Source of the DNA: Pigmentiphaga sp. NML030171
Lineage (GTDB): Bacteria; Pseudomonadota; Gammaproteobacteria; Burkholderiales; Burkholderiaceae_B
Direction of reading: 5' to 3'
Length of the DNA: 64,000 nt
NCBI RefSeq assembly: GCF_002188635.1
Contig: NZ_NINX01000033.1
Span: 248,001-312,000, forward strand
Numbering within the stretch: position 1 is the stretch's first letter; each line of letters starts with the position of its first letter. The notes under the pieces are model-generated. The model did no database searches, had not been told where the DNA came from, and saw only the letters and a list, made by a program, of their open reading frames with translations. Shown one piece after another: positions 13,055 to 56,882 of this stretch. A program made the translations under genes and the position numbers.

Positions 13055-14164
13055 TCAGCCCTGCCCCGGGTGCACCACGGCCATCCAGATCGGTTCGCTG
13101 CGATCGAGCATGACCCGCAGGGCCCGGTTCACCTCGGCCAGCGGGAAATGATGGGTGATCAGCGCATTGGCGTTCAGCCGGCCCGATGCCAGCAGTTCCA
13201 GCACGGCGTCGGTATCCGATCGCGTGCAGGCCCGGGTGCCGACGATCTTCCAGCACATCTGCATGGCTTCGGCCACCGTCAGCGACAGCGGCACGGCGTT
13301 GCCGCCCATGTGCACCAGCGTGCCGCCCAGCGCCAGCGCGCGCAGTGCCTGCATCGTGCCCGGGCCGCCCGGGAAATAGTCCAGCACGGCATCCGCGCCT
13401 CCCGGCAGCACCTCCCGCAGCCGGCGGGTCAGGCCCTGGCTCTCGGCCCAGTCGGGCGCCAGTTCGTCCAGCGCGACCAGCTCCACGGGCAGGTCGCCCG
13501 CCAGCGGCCGCAGCGCCTCCAGGCGTTCGCGCGACCGCGCCACCAGCACCAGGCTGCGCGCGCCGTAGAACCGCGCCAGCAGGATGCTGGCCGTTCCCAT
13601 GGTGCCGGTGGCCGCGGTGATGACCAGGCGCCCCGGCTCGGGAATGGCCGCGCACTTGAGCGCGCGCACGGCATTGGCCAGGTCGTGCACCTTGGCGCCG
13701 ACGTCGAAGCCGACGTTGTCGGGCAGGGGGTCGACCAGCCAGTCCGGGGCGCGCGCATACTCGGCCAGGCCGCCGTCGTGATAGCGCGCGTAGAGCTCCA
13801 GCTTGCCGGTGCCGAACGCGGCGTGCCCGATCATGGCGGTCTCCGCGCACAGTTGCTGGCGGTCGGTGCGGCAATAGACGCAGTCGCCGCAGGACAGCAT
13901 GGGATGCACCCGCACCCGCCGGCCGACCAGCGAGGCGTCGGCCTCGCGTCCCGCCGCGACGACCACGCCGGCGATCTCGTGGCCGGGCGTGGACGGCAGG
14001 TGCTTGAAGCGGCCGCGCTCGAGCAGCTTCATCATGCCGGGCGCGATGCCGGCGGACGCGACCTTGATCAGCACGTCCCGTGCGCCGGGCTCGGGCACCG
14101 GCACCCGCTCCAGCCGCAATTCGGTCGCGCCCTGGTGGGCGCGCGCGGCAAGCATGTCGCTCAT
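13055..14164 (-). CDS. MDR-family dehydrogenase, structural zinc only (module copy 1)
   Basis: Medium-chain dehydrogenase/reductase of 369 aa. The structural-zinc loop is intact (CGDCVYC plus a fourth Cys, about 93-107), as is the nucleotide loop ITAATGTMGTAS. The catalytic-zinc cysteine expected in a GICGTD-type motif is replaced by Ala41 (SAGIAPG), although His62-Glu63 remains. It is therefore probably not an ordinary zinc alcohol dehydrogenase. A close paralogue lies at 51951-53054 with the same replacement. Last gene of the operon receptor, TAXI receptor, double cupin, dehydrogenase; 17 bp after the cupin gene. It probably oxidises or reduces a product of the cupin protein. Confidence 0.85.
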   Translation of the reverse strand: MSDMLAARAHQGATELRLERVPVPEPGARDVLIKVASAGIAPGMMKLLERGRFKHLPSTPGHEIAGVVVAAGREADASLVGRRVRVHPMLSCGDCVYCRTDRQQLCAETAMIGHAAFGTGKLELYARYHDGGLAEYARAPDWLVDPLPDNVGFDVGAKVHDLANAVRALKCAAIPEPGRLVITAATGTMGTASILLARFYGARSLVLVARSRERLEALRPLAGDLPVELVALDELAPDWAESQGLTRRLREVLPGGADAVLDYFPGGPGTMQALRALALGGTLVHMGGNAVPLSLTVAEAMQMCWKIVGTRACTRSDTDAVLELLASGRLNANALITHHFPLAEVNRALRVMLDRSEPIWMAVVHPGQG

Positions 14165-14181
14165 ATTGCTGTCCTTGTGTG

Positions 14182-15165
14182 TCAAGTCGGTTTTCCAGGG
14201 CGCAGCGCGTCGATTTCCGACGGCGTCATTCGCTCGGCCTGGCGGGCGCCTTGCGCCACCTGCGGGATGGGTTGGGTCGAGACCAGCGACAGATGCGTGC
14301 TGGGCTCCGCGTGGATGCTGGCGAAGGCCACGGCGCGGGGAATGCGGACGAAGTCCCCGGGCGCCAGGCGCAGCACGCCCCGCTGGGTCACCAGCGTGCG
14401 CGTACCCGAGACCTGGTACTGGATCTCCTCGGCGTTGCGCAGCCGGCGATAGACGTGTCCGGTCGAGGCGGCGGCGGCCGTGGTTCCGATCATGGCCGTG
14501 GGGCCGCGATACAGCCATTCGCTGCCCGATCCGATGCGCAGGACCTCCAGCCGCTCCTGTGTTTCATCGGCATGGGACAGCAGCAGCCGTTCGTCGATGG
14601 GAGACAGCGCCACGTCCTGGCCCGGGCCGGCCACGCCTTCGGTGACGAGCTCGTTCAGGGGCGCGGGCGACCAACCCGGAAACGGCGGGATCCTGGCCTC
14701 GGAGCGACGGTCCACCGCGCCCAGGCGCTCGACCGGACCTGGCGCGTAGAACAGCAGGTGGATGTCGCGGCGGCCGTAGTTGTCGTGGGCCACGCCGTCG
14801 GGCAGCCGGGCGAACTCGCCCGGCGCCACGTCCACGCTGCCCAGTTCCGTCATGATGGTGCGGTCGCCGCACACCTGGAACGAGATCTCGTCCACGCCGC
14901 AGTTGCGGTGGTAGAAAGGCTGGCGGGCATTCATCGTCTGCCACTCTATCCGCATGGCCGCGCTTTCGTAGACCCCGCGCGGGGGCACGAAGGGCTGGTC
15001 CACGTACCCGGGGGGAAAATGCACCGCCTCGACGGGCGGGTACGCGCGGGGAGGGCGGCCGCCGCCCGGCAGGGGTTCGGCCAGCAGCAGTTCCTCGCGA
15101 CGGCGCAGCACGCGGGGCGGCGCGTCGAAAGGAAATGCCTCCAGGTATTCAAGGACTTCGGGCAC
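14182..15165 (-). CDS. Double-cupin protein, homogentisate-dioxygenase-like (module copy 1)
   Basis: A 327-residue bicupin. Each half has an H-x6-E or H-x4-E pair and a downstream His: YHRNCGVDEISFQV...GVAHDNYG in the first, RNAEEIQYQVSGTR...AVAFASIHAEP in the second. The pattern recalls homogentisate 1,2-dioxygenase and related non-haem iron ring-cleaving enzymes, but the protein is shorter than the ~430 aa of that enzyme. Start GTG 15165 has AAGGAGA upstream. The paralogue at 53085-54065 is also followed by an MDR dehydrogenase. Aromatic ring cleavage is inferred; no substrate can be named. Confidence 0.75.
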   Translation of the reverse strand: MPEVLEYLEAFPFDAPPRVLRRREELLLAEPLPGGGRPPRAYPPVEAVHFPPGYVDQPFVPPRGVYESAAMRIEWQTMNARQPFYHRNCGVDEISFQVCGDRTIMTELGSVDVAPGEFARLPDGVAHDNYGRRDIHLLFYAPGPVERLGAVDRRSEARIPPFPGWSPAPLNELVTEGVAGPGQDVALSPIDERLLLSHADETQERLEVLRIGSGSEWLYRGPTAMIGTTAAAASTGHVYRRLRNAEEIQYQVSGTRTLVTQRGVLRLAPGDFVRIPRAVAFASIHAEPSTHLSLVSTQPIPQVAQGARQAERMTPSEIDALRPGKPT

Positions 15166-15200
15166 GGCGGTCTCCTTCGGGGCGGGCGGGAACGAGCGGC

Positions 15201-16169
15201 TCAGGCCAGCAGCCCCGCCTCGCGGTAATAGCGTTGCGCGCCCGCATGCAGCGCGATGGACGGCCGGGCCATCCTGGCGGGATCGATGGGATAGGACAGC
15301 GGACTGCGCTGCGGCGGCAGGTGGCGGTACTGGCGCTCGATGGCCTCGCGCGTCTCCACCAGGCACCAGGTCAGCAGATGCGCTACCTCCTCGTCCATGT
15401 CGTCGCGCACCAGCACCAGGAAGTCCGAGAAGTCCAGGGCCTCCACCGGCGTCTCGAGATTTTTCCAGTAGCCTGCGGGCAGCGCGTTGGCCGGGAAGCC
15501 GTGATCGGCGCGCAGCCGGGCCAGGGCGGAAGGTTCCGCGGACAGCGGCACCGCCAGTCCGGACTCGACGATCCGCGCCCACCACGGCGTCATGATCGCT
15601 TCCTGCAGCACGCCGTCCACCTCTCCCGCCTCCATGCGCGCCAGGCTGTCGCGGGGATTGGTGTCCTCGACGTAGGATCCGCCCCAGGCCGCCAGCGTGG
15701 CCTCGTCGATGCCGTGGGCCGCCATGAACAGGCGGCTTATATAGCCGATGAAGTTGGTTCCGTCGTTGCGCGACGTGGCGATGCGCAGGGCCGGCCGGCG
15801 GCTGCGCAGTTCCTCGAAAGAACGGATACCCAGGTCCGGGCGCAGCGCCAGCACCATGCGGTCGTTCTGCGGCAGCACCGCCAGCGAGCGCAGGTTGGGC
15901 GCGGCGCGTCCCTGGAAGATGGACTGGCCCGTCAGCGCGGCCGGCATCAGCATCGCCGGCGTCACCAGGCACAGGTCCACCTCGCCTTCCTGCACCAGGT
16001 CGATGGCCTCGATACCGCCGGCGCGTATGCTCCATATGGCCACGCGGCTGCGCGGGCCGGCGCGCTTGCAGAACTCCTCGCACAGCCAGGAGCAGATGCG
16101 GTGGAAGTTCGCCTGGCCCCAGTCGCCGACGAAGCGCAGGTGGTACGAGCGGGAAAGTGCGGGTTGCAT
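15201..16169 (-). CDS. TAXI-type TRAP solute receptor lacking a signal peptide
   Basis: A 322-residue protein with similarity in layout to TAXI-family TRAP receptors. Blocks are SIRAGGIEAIDLVQEGEVDLCLVTPAML and, at the C-terminus, SIALHAGAQRYYREAGLLA, which matches the family's 'HPGAERYYRE.G' ending. The N-terminus MQPALSRSYHLRFVGDWGQ is not a signal peptide, and no better upstream start is visible. It may act in the cytoplasm as a sensor or enzyme, or need another export route. It lies between the Bug receptor (10 bp) and the double-cupin gene (35 bp). Confidence 0.7.
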   Translation of the reverse strand: MQPALSRSYHLRFVGDWGQANFHRICSWLCEEFCKRAGPRSRVAIWSIRAGGIEAIDLVQEGEVDLCLVTPAMLMPAALTGQSIFQGRAAPNLRSLAVLPQNDRMVLALRPDLGIRSFEELRSRRPALRIATSRNDGTNFIGYISRLFMAAHGIDEATLAAWGGSYVEDTNPRDSLARMEAGEVDGVLQEAIMTPWWARIVESGLAVPLSAEPSALARLRADHGFPANALPAGYWKNLETPVEALDFSDFLVLVRDDMDEEVAHLLTWCLVETREAIERQYRHLPPQRSPLSYPIDPARMARPSIALHAGAQRYYREAGLLA

Positions 16170-16179
16170 GAAGGAACTC

Positions 16180-17193
16180 CTATTCGACCTTGACGTGGGC
16201 GTCCTGGATCACCTTCGCCCAGAATGCATTCTGCTCGCGCACCAGTGCCCCGAAGGCCTGCTGGTTGCTGTCCACCGGCTCGAAGCCCAGTTCCAGCAGG
16301 CGGCTGCGGATCTCGGGACGCGCCAGTACCTTCTGCACCGAGGCGGCCATCTTCGCCGTCAGCGCGGCGGGCGTGCCGGCCGGCACCAGCAGGCCGCCGA
16401 AGCCGACCACTTCGAACCCGCCGTAGCCCGACTCCTTCATGGTCGGAATGTCGGGACTGATGGGCGAGCGCGTCGAACCGGTGCTGGCAAGAATGCGCAG
16501 GGTGCCCGCCTGCACGTGCGGCAGCAGGTCGGAGTAGGACGCGAACACGCTGGAGATGCGCCCGGCCGCCACGTCCATCACCGCGGGCGGGATGCCGGTG
16601 TAGGGCACGTGCAGCATGTCGATGCCGGCCTGCTGCATCAGGATGACCATGTTCAGGTGCGGGGTGGAACCCTGGCCCGGGCTGGAGAACGACAACTGGG
16701 CGCCAGGCCGCGCCGCGTACGCGGCGAACTCCTTGACTGTCTTGACGGGCAGCCCGGCGTTCACGCCCAGCCAAAGCTGGGCGGTGAAGAGCTGGGCCAC
16801 CGGCACGAAGCTGGCCACCGGGTCGTAGCCGGCCGAGCGCAGCAGGTGCGGCGCCTGCACGTAGGGTGTGGTGCCCAGCAGCATGGTGCGGCCGTCGGGC
16901 GGCGACTTGGCCACGTGGGCGGCGCCGATGACGCCGGAAGCGCCGGCGCGGTTGTCCACGACCACCGGCACGCCCCACTCCTTGGACAAGGGTTCGGCCA
17001 CCAGTCGCGCGGCGTTGTCGAACGAGCTGCCGGCACGGCCGGACACCACGATGGTCACGCGGCCACCGTCGAAAGGCTCGGCCGCCGCCGGCACCGCGCC
17101 CACGAACAGCGCGGCGCATGCCAGGACCGGCAGGCAGGCCAGCACGCGGCATGCGCGCCGGCGCGCGCGAACGCCAGAAATGTCTGATTCCAT
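16180..17193 (-). CDS. Bug-type (TctC) receptor (module copy 1)
   Basis: A 337-residue periplasmic receptor. The signal peptide runs through VLACLPVLACAALFVGAVPAAA. Mature blocks are VTIVVSGRAGSSFDNAARL, KSPPDGRTMLLGTTPY, and TGIPPAVMDVAAGRISSVFASYS. It is visibly closer to the receptor at 55857-56882 than to the others here (shared GIPPAVMDV/GTPPAVMDV, VFASYS, LASTG.TRS, PTMKE blocks). First gene of the leftward four-gene operon, reading away from the ABC exporter gene. No TctA/B genes nearby. Confidence 0.9.
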   Translation of the reverse strand: MESDISGVRARRRACRVLACLPVLACAALFVGAVPAAAEPFDGGRVTIVVSGRAGSSFDNAARLVAEPLSKEWGVPVVVDNRAGASGVIGAAHVAKSPPDGRTMLLGTTPYVQAPHLLRSAGYDPVASFVPVAQLFTAQLWLGVNAGLPVKTVKEFAAYAARPGAQLSFSSPGQGSTPHLNMVILMQQAGIDMLHVPYTGIPPAVMDVAAGRISSVFASYSDLLPHVQAGTLRILASTGSTRSPISPDIPTMKESGYGGFEVVGFGGLLVPAGTPAALTAKMAASVQKVLARPEIRSRLLELGFEPVDSNQQAFGALVREQNAFWAKVIQDAHVKVE

Positions 17194-36453: not shown

Positions 36454-37560
36454 TCACTGGGACACGGCCGCTTCGCCGGCCAGGATTTCCCGGGCGCGCC
36501 GCAGCGGGCCATGGTCGACGAAACGGTCGAAGTCGATGGGCGCGGCCAGGAAGCCATGCCGCAGCAAGTGGTCGTGTTGCACCCGCAGCGCCTCCACCCA
36601 CTCCGGACGCAGGTCGACCTCGAGCTGGCGGTGGACCTCCTGCGGAAAGGCCGCGTCCACGAGTTCCTCGGGCAGGCCGGTGTCGGCAGCGATGACACGC
36701 TTGGCCTCGCGCTCGTTGGCCGCCGCCCAGGCGGCCGCGCGCAGGACCGCGGCCAGGCAGCGCGCCACCAGTTCCGGCTGCTCGGCCAGCAGGTCCTCGC
36801 TCACGGTCAGGGCCAGCGGTGCATCGTTGTTCACGCGACCGGCCAGGTCGGGACTGGAGGCCGCGTCGGCGATGGCCACCGCGCCGGTGAACCCCATGAC
36901 CACGGCGGCAATCGCGCCCTGGCTGTAGAGCGCGTCCACCTCGCCCCGGACCAGCGCGAAGGCTTCCTCGCGCTGGTGGCCCAGCATGCACTGCGCGCCC
37001 CACAGCGTGGCCGTCCGGGCGGTGGAGGCCGTCGCTCCGTCCATGAACGTCCGGTTGGTCGAGACCGGCGTCATCGCCACGTCATCCATGGTCATGCCCT
37101 CGCGCGCCAGCGCGAGTTCGGTGCCCCGCAGCGACGAGGCCTTCCAGAAATCGATGGAATCGCCGGCGCGTATCGGCAGCGAGACCTTCCTGCCGGCCAG
37201 TTCGCGCACCGAGGCGATGCCGCTGTCCGGCATGACCAGCATGGGCTTGATGCTGTCGTTCCACGACAGGCCGATCAGCTTGACCCGGCCGCCGCGCGAG
37301 CGGGTCACCAGCGGAGGGCCGTTGCCGCCGTGGCGGAACGAGTTGGGCTGGGAATGGTGGAAATGCGACTGTCTGACCTGGTTGTCGGTGCTGGATGCGA
37401 GCGAACGCGCCACGATGCCGTCGCGCGCCAGTTCGGCATCGAGAAAGCCCCGCTCGACGGCGACGCCGAACGCCGTCGGCACCGGGCAGCGGGTGTACCA
37501 GAGAGTGGAGGGGTTCATCACGCGGGACTCATCGTTCAAGGGGGAATGTTCACTGGCCAT
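36454..37560 (-). CDS. DszB-like desulfinase homologue (periplasmic-binding-protein fold)
   Basis: A 368-residue protein of the NMT1/SsuA fold without a signal peptide. From memory of Rhodococcus DszB (2'-hydroxybiphenyl-2-sulfinate desulfinase, Cys27-His60-Arg70), the matching segments are present: CPVP with Cys25, then HF-x3-QP-x3-R giving His66 and Arg76 with the same 10-residue spacing, then GG-x2-PPL. DVDALYS also matches. Loss of a sulfinate group from an aromatic ring is therefore plausible. A solute-binding or thiamine-precursor role is the alternative. ATG 37560 has GGAG upstream and overlaps the preceding stop by 11 bp. Confidence 0.72.
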   Translation of the reverse strand: MASEHSPLNDESRVMNPSTLWYTRCPVPTAFGVAVERGFLDAELARDGIVARSLASSTDNQVRQSHFHHSQPNSFRHGGNGPPLVTRSRGGRVKLIGLSWNDSIKPMLVMPDSGIASVRELAGRKVSLPIRAGDSIDFWKASSLRGTELALAREGMTMDDVAMTPVSTNRTFMDGATASTARTATLWGAQCMLGHQREEAFALVRGEVDALYSQGAIAAVVMGFTGAVAIADAASSPDLAGRVNNDAPLALTVSEDLLAEQPELVARCLAAVLRAAAWAAANEREAKRVIAADTGLPEELVDAAFPQEVHRQLEVDLRPEWVEALRVQHDHLLRHGFLAAPIDFDRFVDHGPLRRAREILAGEAAVSQ

Positions 37561-38161
37561 CGCGCCGCTCCAGCCATGCCCAGGCCGCGCGCCGCAATTG
37601 CTGCTCGGCCTGGCTGCCGCCCACCACCGTCGAGGCGGACACGTCGCGGCCCTTCTTGCGTTGCCGCAGGCGCATGAAGGCCAGCCCGGCATCCGGGGCC
37701 GCCAGATCCACCTCGCGCAGCCATGGGGGCGCCTCGCCCTGCGCGGGATCGAGGCGGTCCTTGTCGAAGATCGCCGTCCAGTGCAGGATGCCCCACCTGC
37801 CGGCGCGGCGTTCCACCTGGTCGAGGAAACGGCAGTAGCCGGTGTAGTCGAACAGTTGTCCGTCGAGGTGCTCGCGGATCAGGATGGCCATGTCGGACTC
37901 CAGCAGGGCCCGGTCGCCACGCTGGTCCACGCGGCAGTTCCCGACCCAGTGCTTGCCGTGTTCGCCGGGCTTGCGCGCCGCGTCGCTGGCCGCCAGCAGC
38001 GGCACCAGGTCCGCGACCTTGCCGTTGAACCACGAGATGCTGGCGGTCGCCTCGGGGTGGAAGCAGCCGGCCATGCCGGCGAAATCGCCCTGGTCGCGAT
38101 GGAAGGCCCATCGCTGCCGCAGGCTCCGTATGGCGAGATCGTCGGCGGCGGAAGAAGACAT
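37550..38161 (-). CDS. NTF2/SnoaL-like protein
   Basis: A 203-residue alpha+beta barrel protein of the SnoaL/ring-hydroxylating-dioxygenase-beta-like fold. It has the start DDLAIRSLRQRWAFHRDQGDFAGMAGCFHPEA and the strand pair GYCRFLDQVERRAGRWGILHW, written in parts. Such proteins may be small hydrolases, isomerases or accessory subunits. AGGAG precedes ATG 38161. It lies 10 bp after the FAD monooxygenase stop and overlaps the DszB-like gene start. Catalytic residues cannot be assigned. Confidence 0.78.
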   Translation of the reverse strand: MSSSAADDLAIRSLRQRWAFHRDQGDFAGMAGCFHPEATASISWFNGKVADLVPLLAASDAARKPGEHGKHWVGNCRVDQRGDRALLESDMAILIREHLDGQLFDYTGYCRFLDQVERRAGRWGILHWTAIFDKDRLDPAQGEAPPWLREVDLAAPDAGLAFMRLRQRKKGRDVSASTVVGGSQAEQQLRRAAWAWLERRDGQ

Positions 38162-39377: not shown

Positions 39378-39583
39378 GCCTGCTCCCCATGCCGCAGGTC
39401 GCGCAGTGCGACCTCGATGACCTGCGCCAGCCGGCCCGGATCGGCCAGCATGGACGACAACATCAAGGCGACCTTGGCCAGGAAGACCGCCTCCTTGTCC
39501 GGCCCGGCCGCGTTCATCGCGACGGCCAGCGCCTCCCAATTGCGTTCCAGCAGCCCCGCGGGCAATGTCTGTTCAACCAGCAT
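39374..39583 (-). CDS. Small DUF2783-like protein
   Basis: A 69-residue helical protein between the two FAD monooxygenase genes, overlapping both: 11 bp at its start and 4 bp at its stop. Small DUF2783 proteins occur beside MhpA-type hydroxylases. The hydrophobic pattern NWEALAVAMNA...LAKVALMLSSMLADPGRLAQVIEVAL matches this type. It may be an accessory subunit; function unknown. Too small to be sure of the family by eye. Confidence 0.68.
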   Translation of the reverse strand: MLVEQTLPAGLLERNWEALAVAMNAAGPDKEAVFLAKVALMLSSMLADPGRLAQVIEVALRDLRHGEQA

Positions 39584-41264
39584 GGTCCAACTCCTCTTTA
39601 CCGCGCACCGCGCGCACCAGGCACGGCAACACCGTTTCGGGTTCCCAGGCACGCCACCGCGCCATCACGTGGCCGTCGGGCCGCACAAGGTAGGCCGTAC
39701 CCGGCCTGACGTCGAACGCCCCGGCGATCCCGGCATCGTCGAGCGCGACGGCATCGATGCCGAACGGCACGCCCATCGACGCGCGCAGCGCGTCCAGGCG
39801 CCGCGACTTGTCGCCCAGTCCAGCGTCGCCGAACGCCAGCAGCGTGAAATCGCGACCCAGCCTGTCGTGCAGGAACACCGTCCCGCCGGCCGATGCGCCG
39901 CATGGCAGGTTCGGGCAGACGGCGCCGGGCGCGGGGCCGTGGCCGAACGAACCATCGTCGGCAAGACGCAGCGACGAACCGGTCATGCGCAGTTCCGTCA
40001 CCTGGCGAGGATTGATCAGCTCGCGCACGAAGGCCTCGCTTACCGCCAGCGACAGCACCGCTTCCTGCATGACGGCGTGCCCGCGCGTGGGCGGCGTCAT
40101 GAAACGCGTGCTCTTCTCCGCCAGTGCCATGTTCTGCCTGGCCGCATCCACGCGTTCGATCGAATAGGTATCCAGCAGGGCCGGCGGAGCCTGTCCCGCC
40201 GCCACCCAGGCCAGCTTCCAGCCCAGGTTGTGAGCGTCGTCCACGCCGCCGTTCATGCCCCGCGCGCCGAAGATGGGGACCAGGTGCGCGGCGTCGCCGG
40301 CGAACAGCACGCGGCCATCGCGGTAGTCGTCCAGCGTCAGGCTGTGTGCGCGGTACGGGCTGATCCAGTCGATCTGCCAATCCGCCGTCTCGCCTATCGA
40401 CGCCAGGAATTCGGTCACCCGCTCGCGCACCCGCTTGGGCTGGATCTCCTGTTCCAGGTCCTCTTCGGGCAACAGCTGGTAGTCGATGCGCCAGATGTCG
40501 AAGGGCTGCTTGTGCATGATGATGGTCGCCCCCGGAAACGCCGGCGGGTCGAACCAGACGCGCCGGCCGGGCGGTTCCTTGCTGCGCATCTGGATGTCGA
40601 CGATCAGGTAGCGGCCTTCGTACACGCTGCCCCGCAGCTCCTTGCCCAGCGAGCGGCGCACCGCGCTACGGCCGCCGTCGCACGCCACCAGCCACTGCGC
40701 ATGCAACGCGTAGGACCCGGACGGCGTATGGACCCGGGCGGTCACCCGTTCGCCGTCCTGTTCGACATGCTCCAGCCGCGACGACCAGCGCAGGGAAACG
40801 TTGGGGTAGGCGCGCAGCGCCTCGTACAGGTACTGCTCGACGTGGCACTGCGCCAGCGACACCATGGGTGGATGCTTGAGCCGCGGATCCTGCTGCACCT
40901 GGAAATCCAGCACCAGCTTGTCCCGGTAATAGCTGCGGCCGCCCTTCCACGACACGCCGGTCTCGACGAAACGCGTGCCCGCGCCGATGCGCTCGAAGAT
41001 CTCCAGGCTGCGCCGCGCGGTGCCCACCGCCCGGCTGCCCCGGTTGACGGTGTCGTCTTCCTCCAGCACCACCACCTCGATGCCGCGCCGGGCAAGCTCC
41101 AGCGCCACGGTCAGGCCGACGGGCCCGGCGCCGGCGACGACCACCTGGTGCACCGGCGCGTCCCCGCGCATTTCCGGGGGAAGCTCGAAAGGATGGTGCA
41201 CATAGTCGAAGTAAAGGGAGTCATATCGCGCGCCACTGCCCGATATGCCTTCGGTCGATGCCAT
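39573..41264 (-). CDS. FAD-dependent monooxygenase (MhpA-like)
   Basis: A 563-residue flavoprotein hydroxylase with a C-terminal thioredoxin-like tail, as in 3-(3-hydroxyphenyl)propionate hydroxylase and related enzymes. Motifs: VVVAGAGPVGLTVALELARRG, ACDGGRSAVRR, and GRVLFAGDAAHLVPIFGARGMNGG in parts. ATG 41264 is preferred (GGAG upstream). First gene of the leftward eight-gene operon. Two MarR-type palindromes lie upstream at 41308-41362. Confidence 0.88.
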   Translation of the reverse strand: MASTEGISGSGARYDSLYFDYVHHPFELPPEMRGDAPVHQVVVAGAGPVGLTVALELARRGIEVVVLEEDDTVNRGSRAVGTARRSLEIFERIGAGTRFVETGVSWKGGRSYYRDKLVLDFQVQQDPRLKHPPMVSLAQCHVEQYLYEALRAYPNVSLRWSSRLEHVEQDGERVTARVHTPSGSYALHAQWLVACDGGRSAVRRSLGKELRGSVYEGRYLIVDIQMRSKEPPGRRVWFDPPAFPGATIIMHKQPFDIWRIDYQLLPEEDLEQEIQPKRVRERVTEFLASIGETADWQIDWISPYRAHSLTLDDYRDGRVLFAGDAAHLVPIFGARGMNGGVDDAHNLGWKLAWVAAGQAPPALLDTYSIERVDAARQNMALAEKSTRFMTPPTRGHAVMQEAVLSLAVSEAFVRELINPRQVTELRMTGSSLRLADDGSFGHGPAPGAVCPNLPCGASAGGTVFLHDRLGRDFTLLAFGDAGLGDKSRRLDALRASMGVPFGIDAVALDDAGIAGAFDVRPGTAYLVRPDGHVMARWRAWEPETVLPCLVRAVRGKEELDHAG

Positions 41265-49257: not shown

Positions 49258-50556
49258 CTACGCATGATCCGGCCGCGCATCGCGCATCGCCCGCATCTCC
49301 CGGCCCAGCGACAGCGCCAATATCGCGGCCGCGCCCAGGCAGCCGGCCAGGGCTGCCATGCCCAGCGAGAAGCTGCCGGTGCTTTCCTTGATCCAGCCCA
49401 TCAGGTAGGGGCCGGCAAAGCCGCCCAGGTTGCCCACCGAGTTGATCAGCGCGATGCCGCCCGCCGCCGCCGTGCCTTGCAGGAACAGCGGCGGCATTGC
49501 CCAGAACGGCCCCAGGCAGGCATAGATGCCGACCGAGGCCAGGCCCAGGCAGCACAACGCGATCCACGGCGTGCCGAAGTACAGACTGGCGAGCAGGCCG
49601 GCCACGCTGAGAAGGGCCGCGGCCGCGACGTGGCCGGCGCGTTCTCCGCGCTTGTCGCTGCGGCGGCCCCAGGCCAGCATGGCCACCGCGCTGACGGCAT
49701 AGGGCGCGGCCACGATGAAGCCGACCGCGGCATTCGAGTAACCCATCGCCTTGGCGATCTGCGGCAGCCACAGGCCGATGCCGTACAGCCCGATGACGAT
49801 GCCGAAGTACACGCCGCACAGGACCAGCACGCGGCGATCCACCAGGGCCGGCCACATGGCGTGGTGGCTGCGCCCCGAACCGGCCAGCCGGTCCCGCGCC
49901 AGGTCTGCCTCGACGATCTCGCGCTCGCGCGGCGACAGCCACCTGGCGGTGGCCGGCCTGTCCGGCAGCGCGAACAGGACCACGATGCCGAGCACGCACG
50001 AGGGCAGTCCTTCCAGGATGAACAGCCATTGCCAGCCCTTGAGCCCCATCACGTCGTCCATGCCGACCAGCAGGCCCGAGATGGGCGAGCCGATCGCGCT
50101 GGCCAGCGGCACCGCCGCCATGAACAGGGCGATGAACTTCGCCCGGTGACGGGCCGGGAACCAGTAGGTCAGGTAGAGCAGCATGCCGGGCAGGAAGCCC
50201 GCCTCGGCGACGCCGAGCAGGAAGCGCAATGTAAGGAAGCTCGCGGTGCCGGACACGAAGGCCATGGCCGCCGAGATCAGGCCCCAGGTCACCATGATCC
50301 GCGCGATCCACAGCCGCGCGCCAACCTTCTCCAGGATGACGTTGCTGGGAATCTCGAACAGGAAGTAGCCGATGAAGAAGATGCCTGCGCCCCAGCCGAA
50401 GATGGTCGGCGTGAAACCCAGGTCCTGGTTCATGGTCAGCGCGGCGAAGCTGATGTTCACCCGGTCCAGGAAGGCCATCAGGTACAGCAGCATCATCAGC
50501 GGAATGATGCGCGCGCTGATCTTGCGGTAGGGGTCGATCGGCGTGTCGTTGTCCAT
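49258..50556 (-). CDS. MFS transporter, anion:cation symporter (ACS) type
   Basis: A 12-helix permease of 432 aa. The ACS signature FLDRVNISFAALTMNQDLGFT near helix 1 and IGYFLFEIPSNVILEKVGARLWIARIMVTWGLISA (in parts) match tartrate, 4-hydroxyphenylacetate and phthalate transporters. ATG 50556 with CCGGAG upstream is preferred over the longer start at 50619. It ends the leftward unit double cupin, dehydrogenase, M24 protein, MFS, and probably imports the aromatic or organic acid handled there. Confidence 0.88.
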   Translation of the reverse strand: MDNDTPIDPYRKISARIIPLMMLLYLMAFLDRVNISFAALTMNQDLGFTPTIFGWGAGIFFIGYFLFEIPSNVILEKVGARLWIARIMVTWGLISAAMAFVSGTASFLTLRFLLGVAEAGFLPGMLLYLTYWFPARHRAKFIALFMAAVPLASAIGSPISGLLVGMDDVMGLKGWQWLFILEGLPSCVLGIVVLFALPDRPATARWLSPREREIVEADLARDRLAGSGRSHHAMWPALVDRRVLVLCGVYFGIVIGLYGIGLWLPQIAKAMGYSNAAVGFIVAAPYAVSAVAMLAWGRRSDKRGERAGHVAAAALLSVAGLLASLYFGTPWIALCCLGLASVGIYACLGPFWAMPPLFLQGTAAAGGIALINSVGNLGGFAGPYLMGWIKESTGSFSLGMAALAGCLGAAAILALSLGREMRAMRDARPDHA

Positions 50557-50630
50557 GCCCGCTCCGGTGGGGGATGTCTTTTTGGCCGCGCCCATCGTAG
50601 CGCATTCCCTCCGGAGCATGGCGGGCCCGC

Positions 50631-51929
50631 CTACGCCCCCCCGCCCAGCACCGTGACGTCGGTGGGCCAGTCGGTGAACGGCCCGGGTTCCGAGACCTGT
50701 ACGCCGTGGGGCATCCTGCCCATGCGCCGCGCGCCGCGCGCCGTGACACGCACGGTGTCGCCCCAGGCGAACTGGAACACGCCGTCGGCGGTCGAGATCG
50801 CCGGCTTGCAGATATAGACGCCGTCCTCGGGGAACACCGCCTCCATGGCGCGTTCGGTCGCGCCGTAGAAGGGATCGCCGCCGAGCTTGGTCAGCACCAG
50901 CGGCCGGTCGTCGCCCAATCCCCGTCCGTGCAGGATAAGCGAGGCCTTCAGCCCGGCCAGCGGGCCGCTGCGCGGCGCGATGCGGCGCGTGATGTCCACC
51001 GTCGCGGCGATCGCCTCGCGTACGGTGGCACCGGCGCGCAGCACCTCGAGCAGTTCGGCGTACATGTCGCCATGGATGACCGACAGGTCGCGGATGACGG
51101 GCGGACAGCGGTTCACCGCCACCACGGGCAGGCGCTGGGCGCGGTAGCCGATGACCGAGGCCTCGATCTCGCCCAGGATCAGGTCGCCCTCGCGCAGCGG
51201 CCGGGCGGTGGGCCGCGTGAGCGTGCGGCCGGGATTATCGCCGCTGATCCAGTTGAAATGAACCGACAGTTCCGAGCCGCGCCGAAACATGGCGTGCATG
51301 GTCTCGGCCCAGACGACATAGTCCGGCACCCCAGGCTGCGCCGCGGCCAGTTGCGCCTCCAGCGCGCGCTCGACCAGGTCGATGGAGCATTGCAGGACGT
51401 CGATCTCTTCCTGGCTCTTGACCTCGCGCACGTCCTGCATCAGTTCGCCTGCCTCGACGAAGCTCGCGTTCGGCACCGCGCGGACCAGCGCCTCATAGGT
51501 GCCGTGCATGATGGTGCCTTCGGGGGTGCGAGTGCCACCGACCAGCCCGCTGATGCCAATGCGCTGCCCGTCCAGCCCCAGTTCCCGCAGCCGCTCGCCC
51601 ATGGCGGCGCCGAACTGCCGGTTGACGGTGCGCACGTCCGCCACCCAGTCCTGTACCAGCGGCCCCCACCGCTCCTGCGCGGAGGTTGCGACGACGGTGA
51701 CCTCGCCTTCCAGCGGGAAGACCACGCCTATGGACGTGTCGGCTCCGCCCCCGCAATGGGACAGATAGCGGGCATCGGCCTGCCAGTCGGTGGAGTTGCC
51801 CGGATTCGGCGGGGCAATGATGGCGGCAAGGTTTTCCTCGGCCATGCGCTGGCGTACCGCCTTCCAACGGCGGTCGCGTTCGGCCAGAGAAAAGCGGCGG
51901 TAGGGGTGCATCGTCGGTGTATCGGTCAT
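50631..51929 (-). CDS. M24-fold protein with degenerate metal site
   Basis: A 432-residue protein with the creatinase/aminopeptidase P layout. The metal ligands expected in M24 peptidases are missing. The D-x10-D motif reads GEIEASVIGYRAQ (253-265); the EPG motif reads CKPAI with Lys375; the final glutamate before DTV is Gly390. His334 (HGRGLG) remains. It is likely a metal-free hydrolase or lyase, as for creatinase, or a binding protein. It lies 21 bp after the dehydrogenase gene of module copy 2 and upstream of the MFS gene. Confidence 0.8.
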   Translation of the reverse strand: MTDTPTMHPYRRFSLAERDRRWKAVRQRMAEENLAAIIAPPNPGNSTDWQADARYLSHCGGGADTSIGVVFPLEGEVTVVATSAQERWGPLVQDWVADVRTVNRQFGAAMGERLRELGLDGQRIGISGLVGGTRTPEGTIMHGTYEALVRAVPNASFVEAGELMQDVREVKSQEEIDVLQCSIDLVERALEAQLAAAQPGVPDYVVWAETMHAMFRRGSELSVHFNWISGDNPGRTLTRPTARPLREGDLILGEIEASVIGYRAQRLPVVAVNRCPPVIRDLSVIHGDMYAELLEVLRAGATVREAIAATVDITRRIAPRSGPLAGLKASLILHGRGLGDDRPLVLTKLGGDPFYGATERAMEAVFPEDGVYICKPAISTADGVFQFAWGDTVRVTARGARRMGRMPHGVQVSEPGPFTDWPTDVTVLGGGA

Positions 51930-51950: not shown

Positions 51951-53054
51951 TCACGCGGCATCCGGATGCACGATGGCCATCCAGATCGGTTCCTTGCGGC
52001 TGCCGGTGACTTCCATGGCCTCGGCCAGCCGCGACAACGGGAAGCGGTGAGTGATGAGATCGTCGGCGGTGACCTGCCCCGAGGCCAGCAGGTTCAGCAC
52101 CAGGTCCGTGTCCTGCTTCGTGCAGGAACGCGTGCCGACGAAGCGCCAGCAGTGATGCATCATGTCCCGGATCGAGAAGGGCAGCATCGACGTGTTGCCA
52201 CCCATGTGGACCAGGGCGCCGCCCGTGCCCAGGGCCGCCATGGCCTGCGCGCTGCCCGGGCCCGAGGGAAAGAAATCCAGCACCGCGTCCGCCCCCTGGG
52301 GCAGCAGTTCGACCAGGCGCCGCGTCAGGCCCCCGTCCTCTTCCCAGCCCGGCAGATCCTCCAGGGCCACCGTTTTCACGGGCAGGCCGCCGGCCAACGG
52401 CCGCAGGGCCTCCAGGCGCGAGTCGGAGCGCCCGACCAGCACCAGTTCCCGCGCGCCGAAGAAACGGGCGAACTTGATCGAGGCCGTGCCCATGGTGCCG
52501 GTGGCCGCAGTGATGACCAGCCGGCCGGAGGCCGGCATGCCGGTCTGCCGCAGCGCGCGCACGGCATTGCCCAGGTCGTGCAGCTTGGCGCCCACGTCGA
52601 AGCTGACGTTGTCCGGCAGCGGATCGACGTGGCTGGCGGGCACGCGCACGTATTCCGCCAGGCCGCCGTCGTGGTAGCGCTCGTACAGCGGCATGGGGCC
52701 GGTGCCGAAGGCCGCGTGGCCGATCATCGCGGTGGACGGGCACATGGGCTCGCGCCCGCTCAGGCAGTATTCGCAGCGTCCGCAGGTCAGATTGGGCGAG
52801 ACGCGCACGCGCCGGCCGGCCAGGGCCGGATCGACGCCGGCGCCGGTCTCGGCCACCGTGCCGGCGATTTCATGGCCGAGCGTGGTCGGCAGGTGGCGAA
52901 AGCGCCCCTTGGCCAGCAGCTTGGTGATGCCCGGCGCGATGCCCGCGCTGGCCACCCGCACCAGCACCTCGCCCGCTTCCGGCACGGGCACGTCCACCGT
53001 TTCCAGCTTGAGTTCGCCCGATGCATGGGCGCGGGCGGCGATCATCTGCTTCAT
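51951..53054 (-). CDS. MDR-family dehydrogenase, structural zinc only (module copy 2)
   Basis: A 367-residue paralogue of the protein at 13055-14164 with long identical blocks (TAMIGHAAFGTG, YHDGGLAEY, DPLPDNVSFDVGAKLHDL, VITAATGTMGTAS). The four structural-zinc cysteines are present (CGRCEYC plus Cys). The catalytic-zinc Cys is again Ala (SAGIAPG). It follows its own double-cupin gene by 30 bp, as in copy 1. The conserved pairing supports sequential steps of one pathway. Confidence 0.86.
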   Translation of the reverse strand: MKQMIAARAHASGELKLETVDVPVPEAGEVLVRVASAGIAPGITKLLAKGRFRHLPTTLGHEIAGTVAETGAGVDPALAGRRVRVSPNLTCGRCEYCLSGREPMCPSTAMIGHAAFGTGPMPLYERYHDGGLAEYVRVPASHVDPLPDNVSFDVGAKLHDLGNAVRALRQTGMPASGRLVITAATGTMGTASIKFARFFGARELVLVGRSDSRLEALRPLAGGLPVKTVALEDLPGWEEDGGLTRRLVELLPQGADAVLDFFPSGPGSAQAMAALGTGGALVHMGGNTSMLPFSIRDMMHHCWRFVGTRSCTKQDTDLVLNLLASGQVTADDLITHRFPLSRLAEAMEVTGSRKEPIWMAIVHPDAA

Positions 53055-53084
53055 GTTTCCCTGTCCTGTCGTTCTTCTTGCGGC

Positions 53085-54065
53085 TTAGCGCGCGCGCAGC
53101 CGTTCCACCGCCGCGGCATCGAGCCTGCCGCCTTGCTTGGTGCCCTGGGCCGATTGCGGGATCTCGTGGCGGGATGCCAGCATCAGGTACTCGACGGGTT
53201 CGTGGTGGATGCTGGTGAAGGCCACGCCCTGCGGGATGCGCACGAAGTCGCCGGGCTCGATCTCCAGGCAGCCGCGCTGCGTGACCAGCGTGCGGCGCCC
53301 GCTCACCTGGTACTGCACTTCGTCGGCGTTCAGGTGGCGCTGGTAGACGCGGCCGTCACTGGCCGGGCGGCGCGTGCGGCCTATCCAGACGTGGGTCGAG
53401 CGGTAGATCCAGCAGGCCCCCGCCGCCTCGTCACCGGGGTCGAGCACGGCCAGCCGGCGCGGATCGTTCAGGGCGTGGTCCAGCAGCAGGCGTTCGTCGG
53501 CCGGCGCGAGCACCAGGCACTGCCCTGGGCCCGCCAGGTCCTTGGACACCATCTCGTTGACCACCGCAGGCTGCCATTCGGGAAACGGCGTCTGGCGATG
53601 TTCCGAGGTCCGGCGCGCGGGCAGCAGTTCGGCCGCCGGGTCCGACACGTACAACAGCAGGTGGATGTCCTGCCTGCCGTAGTTGTCGTGCGCCACGCCG
53701 TTGGGCAGCCGCACGAACTCGCCCGGCACCAGGTCGACCGAACCCAGCTCGGTCATCAGCAGGCGCTGGCCGTCCACCTGGTAGGAAATCTCGTCCGCGC
53801 CGGTATTGCGGTGATAGAAGCGCTGCCGCCCGTGCGCCATGGAGTAGCGTTCGATGCGCAGGTAAGGGCTTTCGTAGACGTTGCGTTGAGGCCCCTTCTG
53901 CTCGGAGTAGCGCGGCGCATAGTGGATGGCCTCGATGGGCGGCGGCTCCGGCGCCTTCACCGTGGACGGCACGGGGTCGTCCAGCAGCAGCGCCTCGCGC
54001 CGCGTCAGTATCACGGGCGGCGTGTCGAACGGAAAGATGTCGAGATGTTCCTGGACGGTGCTCAT
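53085..54065 (-). CDS. Double-cupin protein, homogentisate-dioxygenase-like (module copy 2)
   Basis: A 326-residue bicupin, clear paralogue of 14182-15165. Candidate metal residues are His85/Glu92/His126 in cupin 1 (YHRNTGADEISYQV, GVAHDNYG) and His244/Glu249/His287 in cupin 2. Shared blocks include MTELGSVDLVPGEFVRLP and RTLVTQRG. First gene of the leftward unit with dehydrogenase, M24 protein and MFS. A 21-bp operator-like site about 196 bp upstream matches one before the Bug gene at 55857. Confidence 0.76.
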   Translation of the reverse strand: MSTVQEHLDIFPFDTPPVILTRREALLLDDPVPSTVKAPEPPPIEAIHYAPRYSEQKGPQRNVYESPYLRIERYSMAHGRQRFYHRNTGADEISYQVDGQRLLMTELGSVDLVPGEFVRLPNGVAHDNYGRQDIHLLLYVSDPAAELLPARRTSEHRQTPFPEWQPAVVNEMVSKDLAGPGQCLVLAPADERLLLDHALNDPRRLAVLDPGDEAAGACWIYRSTHVWIGRTRRPASDGRVYQRHLNADEVQYQVSGRRTLVTQRGCLEIEPGDFVRIPQGVAFTSIHHEPVEYLMLASRHEIPQSAQGTKQGGRLDAAAVERLRAR

Positions 54066-54260
54066 GCTTGGTCTCGCGTGGTCGATGGGATGGCCGTGGC
54101 CTCCGGTGCGCGCATCATGGCGGCAAGCGGTGGGAAAGACAAGACGACGATAAGTTTTTTCGGCAGGGCGGAAATGCGGTTTCTGGACTGAATCCGAGGG
54201 CTCGAAAACCCCGGTTCTCCAGCGGCCGGGCGGAGCCCGGCGAACAGGTTTGGCAGACCC

Positions 54261-54324: not shown

Positions 54325-55575
54325 TCAGGTGGCCGCGGCGGCCATCTCGGCGACGACGCTTCGTATCGCTTCGATCAGCGTCCGCGCCGCCGGAGACGGC
54401 TCTCCCGTGGTGCGCAGGGTCAGGCCGATGTCCCGTTCCGTGCCCGGCAGGGCGATGTCCAGCACCGCCAGGCTGCCTGTCTGGCACTCGTAGTGCAGCT
54501 GTTGGGCCGGCAGGATCGCCAGCATGTCCGTGCGCAGCAGCAACCCCCGGATCATCGCGAGATCGGCGGTCTCCACCGCGGGCTCGGGCGTGCGCACCCG
54601 CGCCCGCGCAAAGACGTCGTCCAGTATCGTGCGGGCGGGTGTGTGGGCGCGGGGCAGTATCCATTGCTGCCGGCCCAGCCGGGCCAGGGCCAGCCCCTTG
54701 CTGGCGGCCAGCGGATGGTCGCTGCGCGCCAGCACCACCATGGCCTCGGACATCAGCCTTTCGCTGCGGAACCCACTGGCCATGTCGGCGGCCCTCAGGC
54801 CGCCAAAGATGAAATCGACGTCGCCGGCGCGCAGGTCCGCGGCCAGGATCTCGTAGGCGCTTTCGTCGGTCACCACGCGCACGCCGGGGTGGGAACGGCT
54901 GACCCGGGCCACGGCCTCGGGCAGGATACGGGTGCGCGCGAAGGGCAGCCCGCCGACCACCACCTGGCCGCGTATGCTGCCCTTCACCGCTGCGATGTCG
55001 TCGGGAATGTGGCGCAGTTCGTTCAACGCCCGGCGCACCTGCAGCACGAACTGTTCCCCCGCCTCGGTCGGCTGCAGGCCGCTGGTCGTGCGATCGAACA
55101 GCGGGAAGCCCGCCCCGCTTTCCAGGATGCGTATGGCCGCGCTGACCGCTGGCTGGCTGATGCCCAGGGCATGCGCGGCGGTGGGCATGTGGCGATGCCG
55201 GGCCAATGCCACCAGCAGTTGCAGGCGGCGCGTGTTGAGGAGGTAGCTAGGCACCGCCGGCGCCACGGCCGTGCGGGCGCGCGGTTGTCCAGCCGCGCAC
55301 CACGACGCCAGTTCTTCCAGTTCGCCGAACACCCGTGCGTTGCGATCGAGCACCGTCCGTCCGACCGCGGTGGGAACCATGCCCGTGGCGCGCCGCTCCA
55401 GCAGGGGCTCACCCAGTGCCTGCTCGATCTCGCGTATGGACCGGGTGACGGCCGACTGCGCGCGGAATAGGGCCGCCGCCGCGCGGGTAGCGCTGCCGTG
55501 CTGGGCCACAGCGGCCAGTACCCGTAAATGGGCCAGGCTGGGCAGGGAAGCGAGACGCTTTGGGGAAGTAGCCAC
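54325..55575 (-). CDS. LysR-type regulator with two N-terminal HTH domains
   Basis: A 416-residue LysR-type protein, about 100 residues longer than usual. Residues 14-75 form one complete LysR wHTH (LAHLRVLAAVAQHGSATRAA...LERRATGMVPTAVG). Residues 114-175 form a second (RRLQLLVALARHRHMPTAAHALGISQPAVSAAIRILE...LQPTEAG). A normal effector domain follows. GTG 55575 is chosen because it begins just before the first HTH; the longer frame would enter the promoter. It lies between the double-cupin operon and a rightward Bug gene, each with a matching operator-like site. Confidence 0.85.
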   Translation of the reverse strand: MATSPKRLASLPSLAHLRVLAAVAQHGSATRAAAALFRAQSAVTRSIREIEQALGEPLLERRATGMVPTAVGRTVLDRNARVFGELEELASWCAAGQPRARTAVAPAVPSYLLNTRRLQLLVALARHRHMPTAAHALGISQPAVSAAIRILESGAGFPLFDRTTSGLQPTEAGEQFVLQVRRALNELRHIPDDIAAVKGSIRGQVVVGGLPFARTRILPEAVARVSRSHPGVRVVTDESAYEILAADLRAGDVDFIFGGLRAADMASGFRSERLMSEAMVVLARSDHPLAASKGLALARLGRQQWILPRAHTPARTILDDVFARARVRTPEPAVETADLAMIRGLLLRTDMLAILPAQQLHYECQTGSLAVLDIALPGTERDIGLTLRTTGEPSPAARTLIEAIRSVVAEMAAAAT

Positions 55576-55646
55576 GTTGCGGGTCCGGAAAAGATCCAGG
55601 TTGGGGCACGGCGCGCCGCACCGGCATACAAGCTTGTTCAAATGCC

Positions 55647-55856: not shown

Positions 55857-56882
55857 ATGAAATCCATCCCCAACATTTCCGTCGTGGCGGCGCGCCACGG
55901 CCTTCGCGCCCTGCACGTACTGGCGGCGGCCCTGCACGTACTGGCGGCGGCCGTCCCCTTGGCCTGCGCCGTGGCGCAGCCCTCGGGCTTTCCGAACGGT
56001 CCGGTCAGGATCGTCGTGCCGGGCCCTGCCGGCAGCTCCATGGACCAGTCTGCGCGCACGTTGTCCGAACCCCTGAGCAAGGCCTGGGGCGTACCGGTCG
56101 TGGTGGAGAACCGACCCGGGGCCGGCACCACCATAGGCAGCGACGCCGTCGCGCGAGCCGCCCCGGACGGCCACACGCTGCTTTTCACCTCGACCGCGTT
56201 CGTGCAGGCACCCTCGCTCTACCGCAACCTGACCTACGATCCCATCAGCAGCTTCGTGCCCGTGGCCCAGGCCGCGGACGCACCGCTATGGCTGGCTGTG
56301 AACGCCGGCATCCCGGCCAGGACCGTGCGCGAATTCATCGCCCTGGCCAAGGCGGCGCCCGGCAAGTACACCTATGCCTCGCCCGGCGCCGGCACGACGC
56401 CCCACCTGCTGGGTGGCCTGCTGGCCAAGGAAGGCGGCGTCGACATGCTGCATGTGCCCTACAAAGGCACGCCGCCCGCCGTCATGGACGTGGTGGGCGG
56501 TCGTGTCTCGGCCGTCTTCGCCAGTTACTCCACGCTGGCCCCGCAGGTCGAGGCGGGCAAGCTGCGCGTGCTGGCCAGTACCGGACCCACGCGTTCTGCG
56601 CTGACGCCCAACGTGCCAACCATGAAAGAGGCGGGTTTCTCGAACTTCGACCTCGTGGGCTTCGAGGGCCTGCTGGCCCCGGCGGGAACGCCGGGGCCGG
56701 TCGTCCACGCCATCGCCCGCGCGGTGGCGCAGGTCGGCGCAACGCCCGACGTGAAGACCAAGTACGCCTCCGTCGGCCTGGTCCCGGTAGAAAGCTCGCC
56801 CGAGGCCTTCTCGCAACTGGTCCGCAACCAGCTCCAGGCCTGGAAGGCCATCATCGCCAACGCCGGCCTGCAGCCAGAATAA
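55857..56882 (+). CDS. Bug-type (TctC) receptor (module copy 2)
   Basis: A 341-residue periplasmic receptor. The signal peptide contains a seven-residue duplication (ALHVLAA twice) caused by a 21-bp tandem repeat. Mature blocks are VRIVVPGPAGSSMDQSARTL, NRPGAGTTIGSDAVARAAPDG in parts, GTPPAVMDVVGGRVSAVFASYS. It is the closest relative in the window of the receptor at 16180-17193, which also accompanies a double-cupin/dehydrogenase pair. Divergent from the dual-HTH LysR gene; a porin gene follows. Confidence 0.92.
   Translation: MKSIPNISVVAARHGLRALHVLAAALHVLAAAVPLACAVAQPSGFPNGPVRIVVPGPAGSSMDQSARTLSEPLSKAWGVPVVVENRPGAGTTIGSDAVARAAPDGHTLLFTSTAFVQAPSLYRNLTYDPISSFVPVAQAADAPLWLAVNAGIPARTVREFIALAKAAPGKYTYASPGAGTTPHLLGGLLAKEGGVDMLHVPYKGTPPAVMDVVGGRVSAVFASYSTLAPQVEAGKLRVLASTGPTRSALTPNVPTMKEAGFSNFDLVGFEGLLAPAGTPGPVVHAIARAVAQVGATPDVKTKYASVGLVPVESSPEAFSQLVRNQLQAWKAIIANAGLQPE
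55908..55949 (+). repeat. 21-bp tandem duplication in signal peptide
   Basis: GCCCTGCACGTACTGGCGGC(G) occurs twice head to tail without mismatch, lengthening the hydrophobic core of the Bug receptor's signal peptide by seven residues. It suggests recent slippage. Confidence 0.9.

Follow-up and report, generated by a model that had tools for sequence, protein, structure and literature searches.

The subject of this work is a set of genes that occurs twice in a 64,000-nucleotide stretch (the window) of the genome of the soil bacterium Pigmentiphaga sp. NML030171, and that encodes a Bug-type receptor, a double cupin and a medium-chain dehydrogenase/reductase (MDR). Copy 1 lies on the minus strand and is transcribed from 17193 to 13055 in the order receptor, TAXI-type protein, cupin, MDR. 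Its genes are BUG1 (16180..17193), a periplasmic receptor of the Bug/TctC type; TAXI1 (15201..16169), a TAXI-fold protein without an evident export signal and probably a cytosolic enzyme; CUP1 (14182..15165, with a GTG start), a bicupin for which alignments, conservation and a structural model predict one metal site (H86, E93 and H127, with N88); and MDR1 (13055..14164), a member of a clade in which the structural-zinc cysteines are intact and the catalytic-zinc cysteine is missing. In copy 2 the minus strand carries, from 54065 to 49258, the cupin CUP2 (53085..54065), the dehydrogenase MDR2 (51951..53054), an M24-type protein and an MFS transporter, and the receptor BUG2 (55857..56882) is encoded on the plus strand; this copy has no TAXI gene.

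Both receptors matched the TctC family of Pfam (PF03401) over their full length, at 210 bits (BUG1) and 232.8 bits (BUG2) against a cut-off of 27, and with their hydrophobic N-termini they are ordinary members of the Bug/TctC receptors. Such receptors are very numerous in this genome, where a single query found at least 150 places at E 1e-30 (150 of 377 candidates scored). ADH_N and ADH_zinc_N were found in both MDRs (ADH_N in MDR1 at E 2.4e-20), and NMT1_3 in TAXI1 at 57.1 bits. Between the copies, the cupins are 55% identical, the MDRs 64% and the Bug receptors 53%; the next-closest Bug receptor of the window is 34% identical to BUG1 and 39% to BUG2. These values bear out a preliminary description of the window, in which copy 1 (13055-17193) and copy 2 (51951-56882) were said to have three paralogous genes in common and the cupin to precede the dehydrogenase directly in each; the latter two genes are separated by 17 bases in copy 1 and by 30 in copy 2.

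To place the two sets among their relatives, neighbourhoods were collected by cupin similarity alone, yielding 44 loci (designated by L and a number) with 47 cupin genes. An MDR of the same clade was the next labelled gene downstream, on the same strand and at most 1.3 kb away from midpoint to midpoint, in 40 of the 47 cupins (10/10 in Pigmentiphaga, 30/37 elsewhere), and an MDR lay within 6 kb of 42; a TAXI-type gene was found within 6 kb of 35 cupins, or 29/37 outside Pigmentiphaga. A four-base overlap joins the called cupin and MDR genes of L005 (Actinomadura) and L007 (Nocardia). Because the same MDR clade stands directly downstream of 40/47 homologous cupins, a chance juxtaposition of common families in the two sets was ruled out. 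The TAXI-type protein, which repeatedly accompanies cupin and MDR in Actinomycetota and Phaeobacter, consequently looks ancestral to the module and not a speciality of copy 1. All reading frames were used for the adjacency counts; the gene caller had mis-set some starts and chosen antisense frames in places. Neighbour labels were assigned by cut-offs of 33-45% identity to single queries. One each was counted of the duplicates L004/L059 and L008/L069, one more Actinomadura cupin (L055) was excluded for a stop codon in its called stretch, as was L018, a partial weak match; L027 and L030 lie outside alignment A3, their genes having entered the 47-gene sets through larger loci.

The distribution of the cupin was patchy. 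A match at 1e-5 was obtained in 6 of 11 Pigmentiphaga genomes, the present one included, and several of them carry two paralogous cupins; the cupin of the relative P. kullae K24 is 94% identical and that of P. humi 75%. Fourteen of 65 Actinomadura genomes were positive, with one to three copies each, as were 6 of 394 genomes of its class (centre genome included) and eight of 72,556 plasmid records, namely seven of Phaeobacter gallaeciensis and one of Streptomyces. Among 399 Burkholderiales genomes a relative at 1e-10 was found in the present genome only, and a profile search of the same set at 1e-3 added partial weak cupin matches in nine others; 398 Pseudomonadota genomes, a set overlapping the former, returned the present genome alone at 1e-20. 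The larger group searches scored part of the first-look candidates of each genome, just a handful in the Burkholderiales and Pseudomonadota sets, and were not exhaustive, so that absence in them does not prove that the gene is missing. Its scattered occurrence across phyla suggests that the cupin-MDR pair was disseminated by horizontal transfer. One of the nine partial weak matches in Burkholderiales is a distant cupin of 345 residues, about 22% identical to CUP1 and flanked on each side by a Bug gene (L096, 838-1875, minus strand).

The kinship of the two copies was followed in cupin and MDR trees of 47 rows each. In the cupin tree the copy-1 group (six Pigmentiphaga rows) and the copy-2 group (four) were sisters with a support of 92/92 (ultrafast bootstrap/SH-aLRT, as in all values below), and the same two groups were sisters in the MDR tree at 93/95. 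After removal of long branches (L009, L021, L073 and L092 from the cupin tree, L021 and L092 from the MDR tree) the values were 92/92 and 76/93, and a concatenation of 37 cupin-MDR pairs, with L009, L021, L073 and L092 left out, gave 94/96; none of these supports attained the program's starred level. When the genome was searched with CUP2, two cupins only were found at E 0.01. A search with BUG2 as the query, made in this direction only, returned BUG2 itself first, BUG1 second (53%) and the next receptor at 45%; 150 of 377 candidate places were scored in it and 227 first-look candidates were not. BUG1 was the best of the 149 other scored matches, in agreement with the earlier statement that the two receptors are each other's nearest kin, and among the 44 loci Bug-type frames at 1e-10 were confined to those of Pigmentiphaga, the only genus among them in which such receptors are tied to the module. 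Since the three genes agree and the receptor type is restricted to Pigmentiphaga loci, an old joint duplication is likelier than two acquisitions, though not certain. Receptor, cupin and MDR were thus probably duplicated together long ago, with moderate tree support, and one duplicated set is also what the preliminary description had proposed; the cupins and the MDRs of the window do not fall into unrelated clades, and their adjacency recurs in other genomes.

A different history, in which copies 1 and 2 came separately from different donors and were not duplicated in this lineage, is unlikely, yet deserves to be taken seriously. The copies are deeply diverged (55-64%), CUP1 is 60% identical to the Actinomadura cupin of L005 and hence closer to it than to CUP2, and an approximately unbiased (AU) test of the cupin tree did not reject a grouping of copy 1 with the Actinomadura group (p 0.206). 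The same grouping was, however, rejected for the MDR (p 0.0125), and the two alternatives tested on the concatenation had AU p values of 0.035 and 0.051. Sister groups were recovered in the cupin tree, the MDR tree and the concatenation alike, and the receptors, of a type unseen in the Actinomycetota loci, are nearest kin as well, all of which argues for joint duplication.

The genes surrounding the module elsewhere give an indication of its role. Within 10 kb of the 47 cupins, FAH proteins were labelled for 22, class II aldolases for 18, dienelactone hydrolases for 18, MhpA-like flavin hydroxylases for 14 and VOC proteins for 12. Genes of a 4-oxalomesaconate pathway stand beside 7/47 cupins, in six distinct sets since L006 and L066 overlap. 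The set of L006, the only one of these scored against families, includes a tautomerase at 469 bits (cut-off 440), an aldolase at 319 (cut-off of NF006731, 179) and a PIG-L protein that we take to be the hydratase (GalB). On the Phaeobacter plasmid stretch with the module, a 3-hydroxybenzoate 6-monooxygenase, an FAH protein, a maleylacetoacetate isomerase and a maleylpyruvate isomerase are annotated, presumably a gentisate-type set. Judging from these neighbours, the module is repeatedly found among catabolic genes of aromatic type, with lower pathways that differ and often without them, and the neighbours point to aromatic or polyphenol breakdown.

A Rieske dioxygenase of the benzoate/anthranilate type, whose large, small and reductase subunits score below equivalog cut-offs, is encoded in the window at 59128-61978 on the minus strand. 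With its own Bug receptor the set occupies 58071-61978 (minus), and it recurs beside copy 2 in L003, L004/L059 and L064. The substrate of copy 2 was not to be read from this set, which yields no unique substrate.

The closest described logic is that of the isoflavone route of Variovorax. In it, the A ring is cleaved by means of the flavin hydroxylase IfcA and the glyoxalase-type dioxygenase IfcB before the redundant cupins IfcD1 and IfcD2, which are 65% identical, act on 2-hydroxy-5-(4-hydroxyphenyl)-4H-pyran-4-one (PMC11069340). The Variovorax isoflavone cluster ifc and the Herbaspirillum naringenin cluster fde offer a parallel in that a flavin hydroxylase, a glyoxalase-type dioxygenase and two paralogous cupins serve one pathway (PMC11069340). 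They differ from the module in that MDR and TAXI partners go unmentioned in the part of the description consulted, and the Pigmentiphaga copies stand apart from a hydroxylase-dioxygenase pair.

Were the module to belong to a pathway of this flavonoid type, the cupin would be the counterpart of IfcD1/IfcD2 and would open a polyphenol heterocycle, a reading that we regard as rather doubtful. It draws on some of the fuller clusters, in which a flavin hydroxylase, a VOC protein and an FAH protein lie beside the cupin. Hydroxylase and VOC protein occur in Phaeobacter and in part of the Actinomadura clusters, and hydroxylase and glyoxalase-type dioxygenase are gene types of the ifc and fde clusters (PMC11069340). 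Several Pigmentiphaga genomes, like Variovorax V35, have two paralogous cupins, and another contig of the present genome encodes a hydroxylase-VOC pair that is 48% and 37% identical to the Phaeobacter pair. Genes for a Rieske oxygenase, for LigA/LigB and for a Bug receptor are found in the vicinity of this pair, which shows no link to the cupins. The copies in the window, moreover, are without a VOC gene, and the flavin hydroxylase of the window (39573-41264) is 33% identical to that of Phaeobacter and far from both copies. A search with the VOC protein matched 10 of 320 Burkholderiales genomes, the present one included; hydroxylase-VOC pairs were seen in 3 of the 6 regions examined, and no cupin of the module family was found among the genes called in those six of the ten VOC-match regions. 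The profile search of the 399 Burkholderiales genomes also counts against the reading, with partial weak matches only outside the present genome, in a sample whose ifc content was not established.

The cupin itself is poorly covered by existing families. No NCBIfam family fitted either protein; CUP2 just passes Cupin_2 of Pfam, and CUP1 had no Pfam match at E 1e-3. The motif H86-R87-N88-x4-E93 is kept in 46/46 cupin rows and H127 in 46/47, and in the alignments the second cupin domain is without matching histidines. In our reading, H86, N88, E93 and H127 correspond to the classical motifs of cupins, asparagine standing in for the second motif-1 histidine as it does in homogentisate dioxygenase. 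A structure predicted from nine sequences (pLDDT 89.2, pTM 0.89) consisted of two cupin barrels and matched bicupins of the PDB, so that the double-cupin fold named in the preliminary description was recovered, with the conserved motif in one domain only. Quercetinase and homogentisate, gentisate and salicylate dioxygenases were among the Foldseek matches; a sequence search of the PDB with the cupin gave 14 weak matches, the best at E 0.071. A single metal site in a bicupin would fit a dioxygenase better than a decarboxylase.

The cupin is annotated as a homogentisate dioxygenase on 5 of the 7 Phaeobacter plasmid records. A plain enzyme of this kind was ruled out by the scores against HmgA (TIGR01015), which were 14.3 and 13.5 bits for a cut-off of 510.75. 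The resemblance to homogentisate 1,2-dioxygenase (HmgA/HGO) lies in the double cupin, in HGO chains among the structural matches (query-normalised TM-scores 0.50-0.53) and in a local profile match of 65 columns, with a probability of 84.5%, to two proteins that we take for HGO-like; the cupin is about 100 residues shorter. In our understanding of HGO its His-Arg-Asn motif is alike, and the two differ in the spacing of 7 from His to Glu and in the domain with the metal site, which is N-terminal here and C-terminal there. The bicupin gentisate and salicylate 1,2-dioxygenases also have two cupin domains and appeared as structural matches, and their metal site is presumably N-terminal, as in CUP1 and CUP2. 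Unlike them, CUP1 and CUP2 matched no sequence family of Pfam or NCBIfam beyond Cupin_2 (CUP2) and, weakly, HmgA.

In the MDR, the structural-zinc cysteines C92, C95, C98 and C106 are kept in 47/47 rows, and in these and in its domains the protein resembles zinc-dependent dehydrogenases such as sorbitol dehydrogenase/ketose reductase and threonine dehydrogenase. It departs from them at the catalytic zinc: the position of the catalytic cysteine is alanine (Ala41) in 46/47 rows, and at the third ligand position 41/47 have histidine and 6 glutamine, H62-E63 being kept in 47/47. With its catalytic zinc altered or lost, the enzyme may be a reductase or a dehydrogenase of an unusual kind.

We also consider it unlikely that the cupin is not an oxygenase at all, and that it and the MDR convert a non-aromatic acid, the cupin acting as an isomerase or decarboxylase. 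The presence of oxalate decarboxylase and of DUF861-type cupins among the structural matches would be in keeping with such a role, as would the polyol dehydrogenases among the nearest solved relatives of the MDR. The recurrent neighbours are, however, mostly of aromatic-catabolic types, and the single His-x-Asn-x4-Glu site resembles that of dioxygenases and not the two sites of decarboxylases.

TAXI1 had TAXI proteins as its best structural matches, with a model pLDDT of only 72.9, and has the fold and the Pfam family (NMT1_3) of TAXI-TRAP solute-binding proteins (1us4, 8u79, 9ibp). It differs from these in its score of 49.1 against TIGR02122 (cut-off 84.35), and the TAXI proteins of the module also in having neither an evident signal peptide nor a TRAP permease. 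In a home-made scan of N-terminal hydrophobicity, with a self-set cut-off of 2.0, TAXI1 scored 0.55, equal to the median of 41 TAXI proteins, of which 0/41 reached 2.0 and 2/41 reached 1.8 (L066 and L088, at 1.87 and 1.93, probably through overlong starts); the median of 23 Bug calls was 2.35, with 15/23 reaching 2.0 and 18/23 reaching 1.8, and Bugs 1, 2 and 3 of the window scored 2.63, 2.35 and 2.37. The called start of TAXI1 has a purine-rich ribosome site in front of it. With the TRAP-fused permease of the present genome as the query, no TRAP permease was found in the 44 loci at E 1e-3; as a positive control, the same query detected 8 of the 9 TRAP-type loci of its own genome, itself included. 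The sole TRAP-fused permease above cut-off in this genome has a TAXI gene of its own alongside, with a hydrophobic N-terminus (2.21). A search of the genome with TAXI1 at 1e-3 found no other TAXI protein; it missed the gene just mentioned, and its reach is therefore limited. A separate binding protein is encoded in eight loci, together with a permease and an ABC ATPase.

The lack of an evident export signal and of a nearby TRAP permease indicates that the TAXI-type protein is probably a cytosolic enzyme and not a transport companion. The latter role, given to it in the preliminary description, was not supported, in view of the 0/41 at the cut-off of 2.0 and the lack of TRAP permeases in the 44 loci. 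Residues D103, W162, D169, E190, W197, D246, D257 and E272 of the TAXI protein are kept in 40 to 42 of 42 sequences. Receptor-fold proteins that act as enzymes include MqnA/MqnD, DszB and the dihydroxyphthalate decarboxylase Pht5, and MqnD was found at rank 45 in the fold search with TAXI1. That TAXI1 is exported after all, making copy 1 a catabolic locus with two uptake receptors, is highly improbable: the TAXI fold, the adjoining Bug gene, a self-set cut-off that accepts just 15/23 Bug calls and the two TAXI calls at 1.87 and 1.93 speak for it, and are opposed by the score of 0.55, the ribosome site before the called start, the 8/9 control behind the missing TRAP permeases, the TAXI gene that the TRAP-fused permease already has and the separate transport genes of the eight loci.

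Taken together, these data make it reasonably probable, in our judgement, that both loci encode one set of catabolic steps, comprising uptake by the Bug receptor, cleavage with O2 by the bicupin, a redox step by the MDR and, where it is present, a third enzyme of the TAXI type; part of the same explanation, with this degree of confidence, is that Actinomycetota and Phaeobacter share an ancient unit made up of the cupin-MDR pair and, in most cases, a TAXI protein. On the outer side of the inner membrane, the receptor would bind an acid of aromatic or heterocyclic type. The mononuclear bicupin, probably with Fe(II) held by two histidines and one glutamate, would act on a hydroxylated ring or a ring-fission intermediate, adding O2 and cleaving one of its C-C bonds, and the MDR would then oxidise or reduce the carbonyl product with NAD(P). 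In copy 1 the TAXI-fold protein may follow as a third cytosolic enzyme, a decarboxylase, lyase or hydrolase. Pigmentiphaga probably acquired the cupin-MDR unit, coupled a Bug receptor to it and duplicated receptor, cupin and MDR for a second substrate. Of this picture, the gene layout, the joint duplication (with moderate tree support), the recurrence, the single conserved metal-site motif, the lack of an evident export signal and the loss of the catalytic-zinc cysteine were observed; the iron, the oxygen chemistry, the order of the steps, the direction of transfer and the substrate we infer.

Several results weigh against this explanation. No MDR of the clade lies within 6 kb of 5/47 cupins (L075 and L077, both near a contig end, and L084, L093 and L009), and no TAXI gene within 6 kb of 12/47. 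A flavin hydroxylase is found within 10 kb of just 14/47 cupins, the aromatic gene set adjoins neither Pigmentiphaga copy, and the aldolase of L006 scores below the cut-off of the narrower LigK model (290.8 vs 304.5). The structural matches of the cupin had query-normalised TM-scores of just 0.34-0.53 in the 50 rows listed and also included oxalate decarboxylase and seed-storage vicilins, and the cupin fold serves decarboxylases and isomerases as well. The signal-less TAXI protein, finally, could be a cytosolic binding or sensor protein.

A bolder proposal, which we advance tentatively as a real possibility on which we would not insist, is that the TAXI fold has been co-opted for catalysis in the cytosol, in a three-enzyme module with the bicupin and the MDR that lacks the catalytic-zinc cysteine, forming a new aromatic or heterocycle route that spans Actinomycetota and Pseudomonadota. 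No description of this gene set was found in the open-licence literature, where several of the searches were aimed at neighbouring topics; cupin-dioxygenase catabolic modules are known, and the literature searched has no description of this family of cupins, of the MDR that goes with it or of a TAXI partner lacking a signal. The gene pair is conserved across phyla, its central enzyme is without a curated family, and a genome may hold as many as three copies of it. Should the cupin prove to be a dioxygenase that cleaves a ring or heterocycle, it would supply the missing step of a degradation route that is open to gene-deletion tests; should the TAXI protein prove to be enzymatic, some of the 'TRAP receptor' annotations in catabolic clusters would be wrong.

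Other proteins of receptor fold were seen in the same genome. An NMT1/THI5-like protein, presumably DszB-like and without a signal peptide by eye, is encoded in the window at 36454-37560 (minus strand), with a SnoaL-like neighbour (37550-38161, minus) and near a vanillate-demethylase-type Rieske oxygenase; it is another candidate cytosolic receptor-fold enzyme. On contig C16 (L127, 14740-16760), LigA and LigB are immediately followed by an NMT1-type protein without an evident signal peptide, also judged by eye, a pairing of LigA/LigB with a receptor-fold protein that resembles that of TAXI and cupin. The TAXI receptor gene beside the TRAP-fused permease (L107, 218-1399, plus strand) is split over two reading frames and is either a broken gene or an assembly error.

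The remaining genes of copy 2 are in part shared with related loci. The gene adjoining MDR2 (50631..51929, minus strand) encodes an M24/creatinase-like protein, with Peptidase_M24 and Creatinase_N of Pfam, and is placed likewise in L003, L004/L059 and L064. The MFS transporter (49258..50619, minus) is nearest to HpaX and to a D-galactonate transporter, below the cut-offs of both; it is present in L003 and L064 and absent from the L004/L059 neighbourhood. A LysR-type regulator with an uncertain start and two HTH_1 domains is encoded upstream of copy 2, likewise on the minus strand (54325..55641). Two HTH_1 stretches were present in each of the three LysR proteins scanned, the others being those of L003 (6431-7738) and L004 (6344-7591), and to our knowledge LysR proteins with such a tandem seem unusual.

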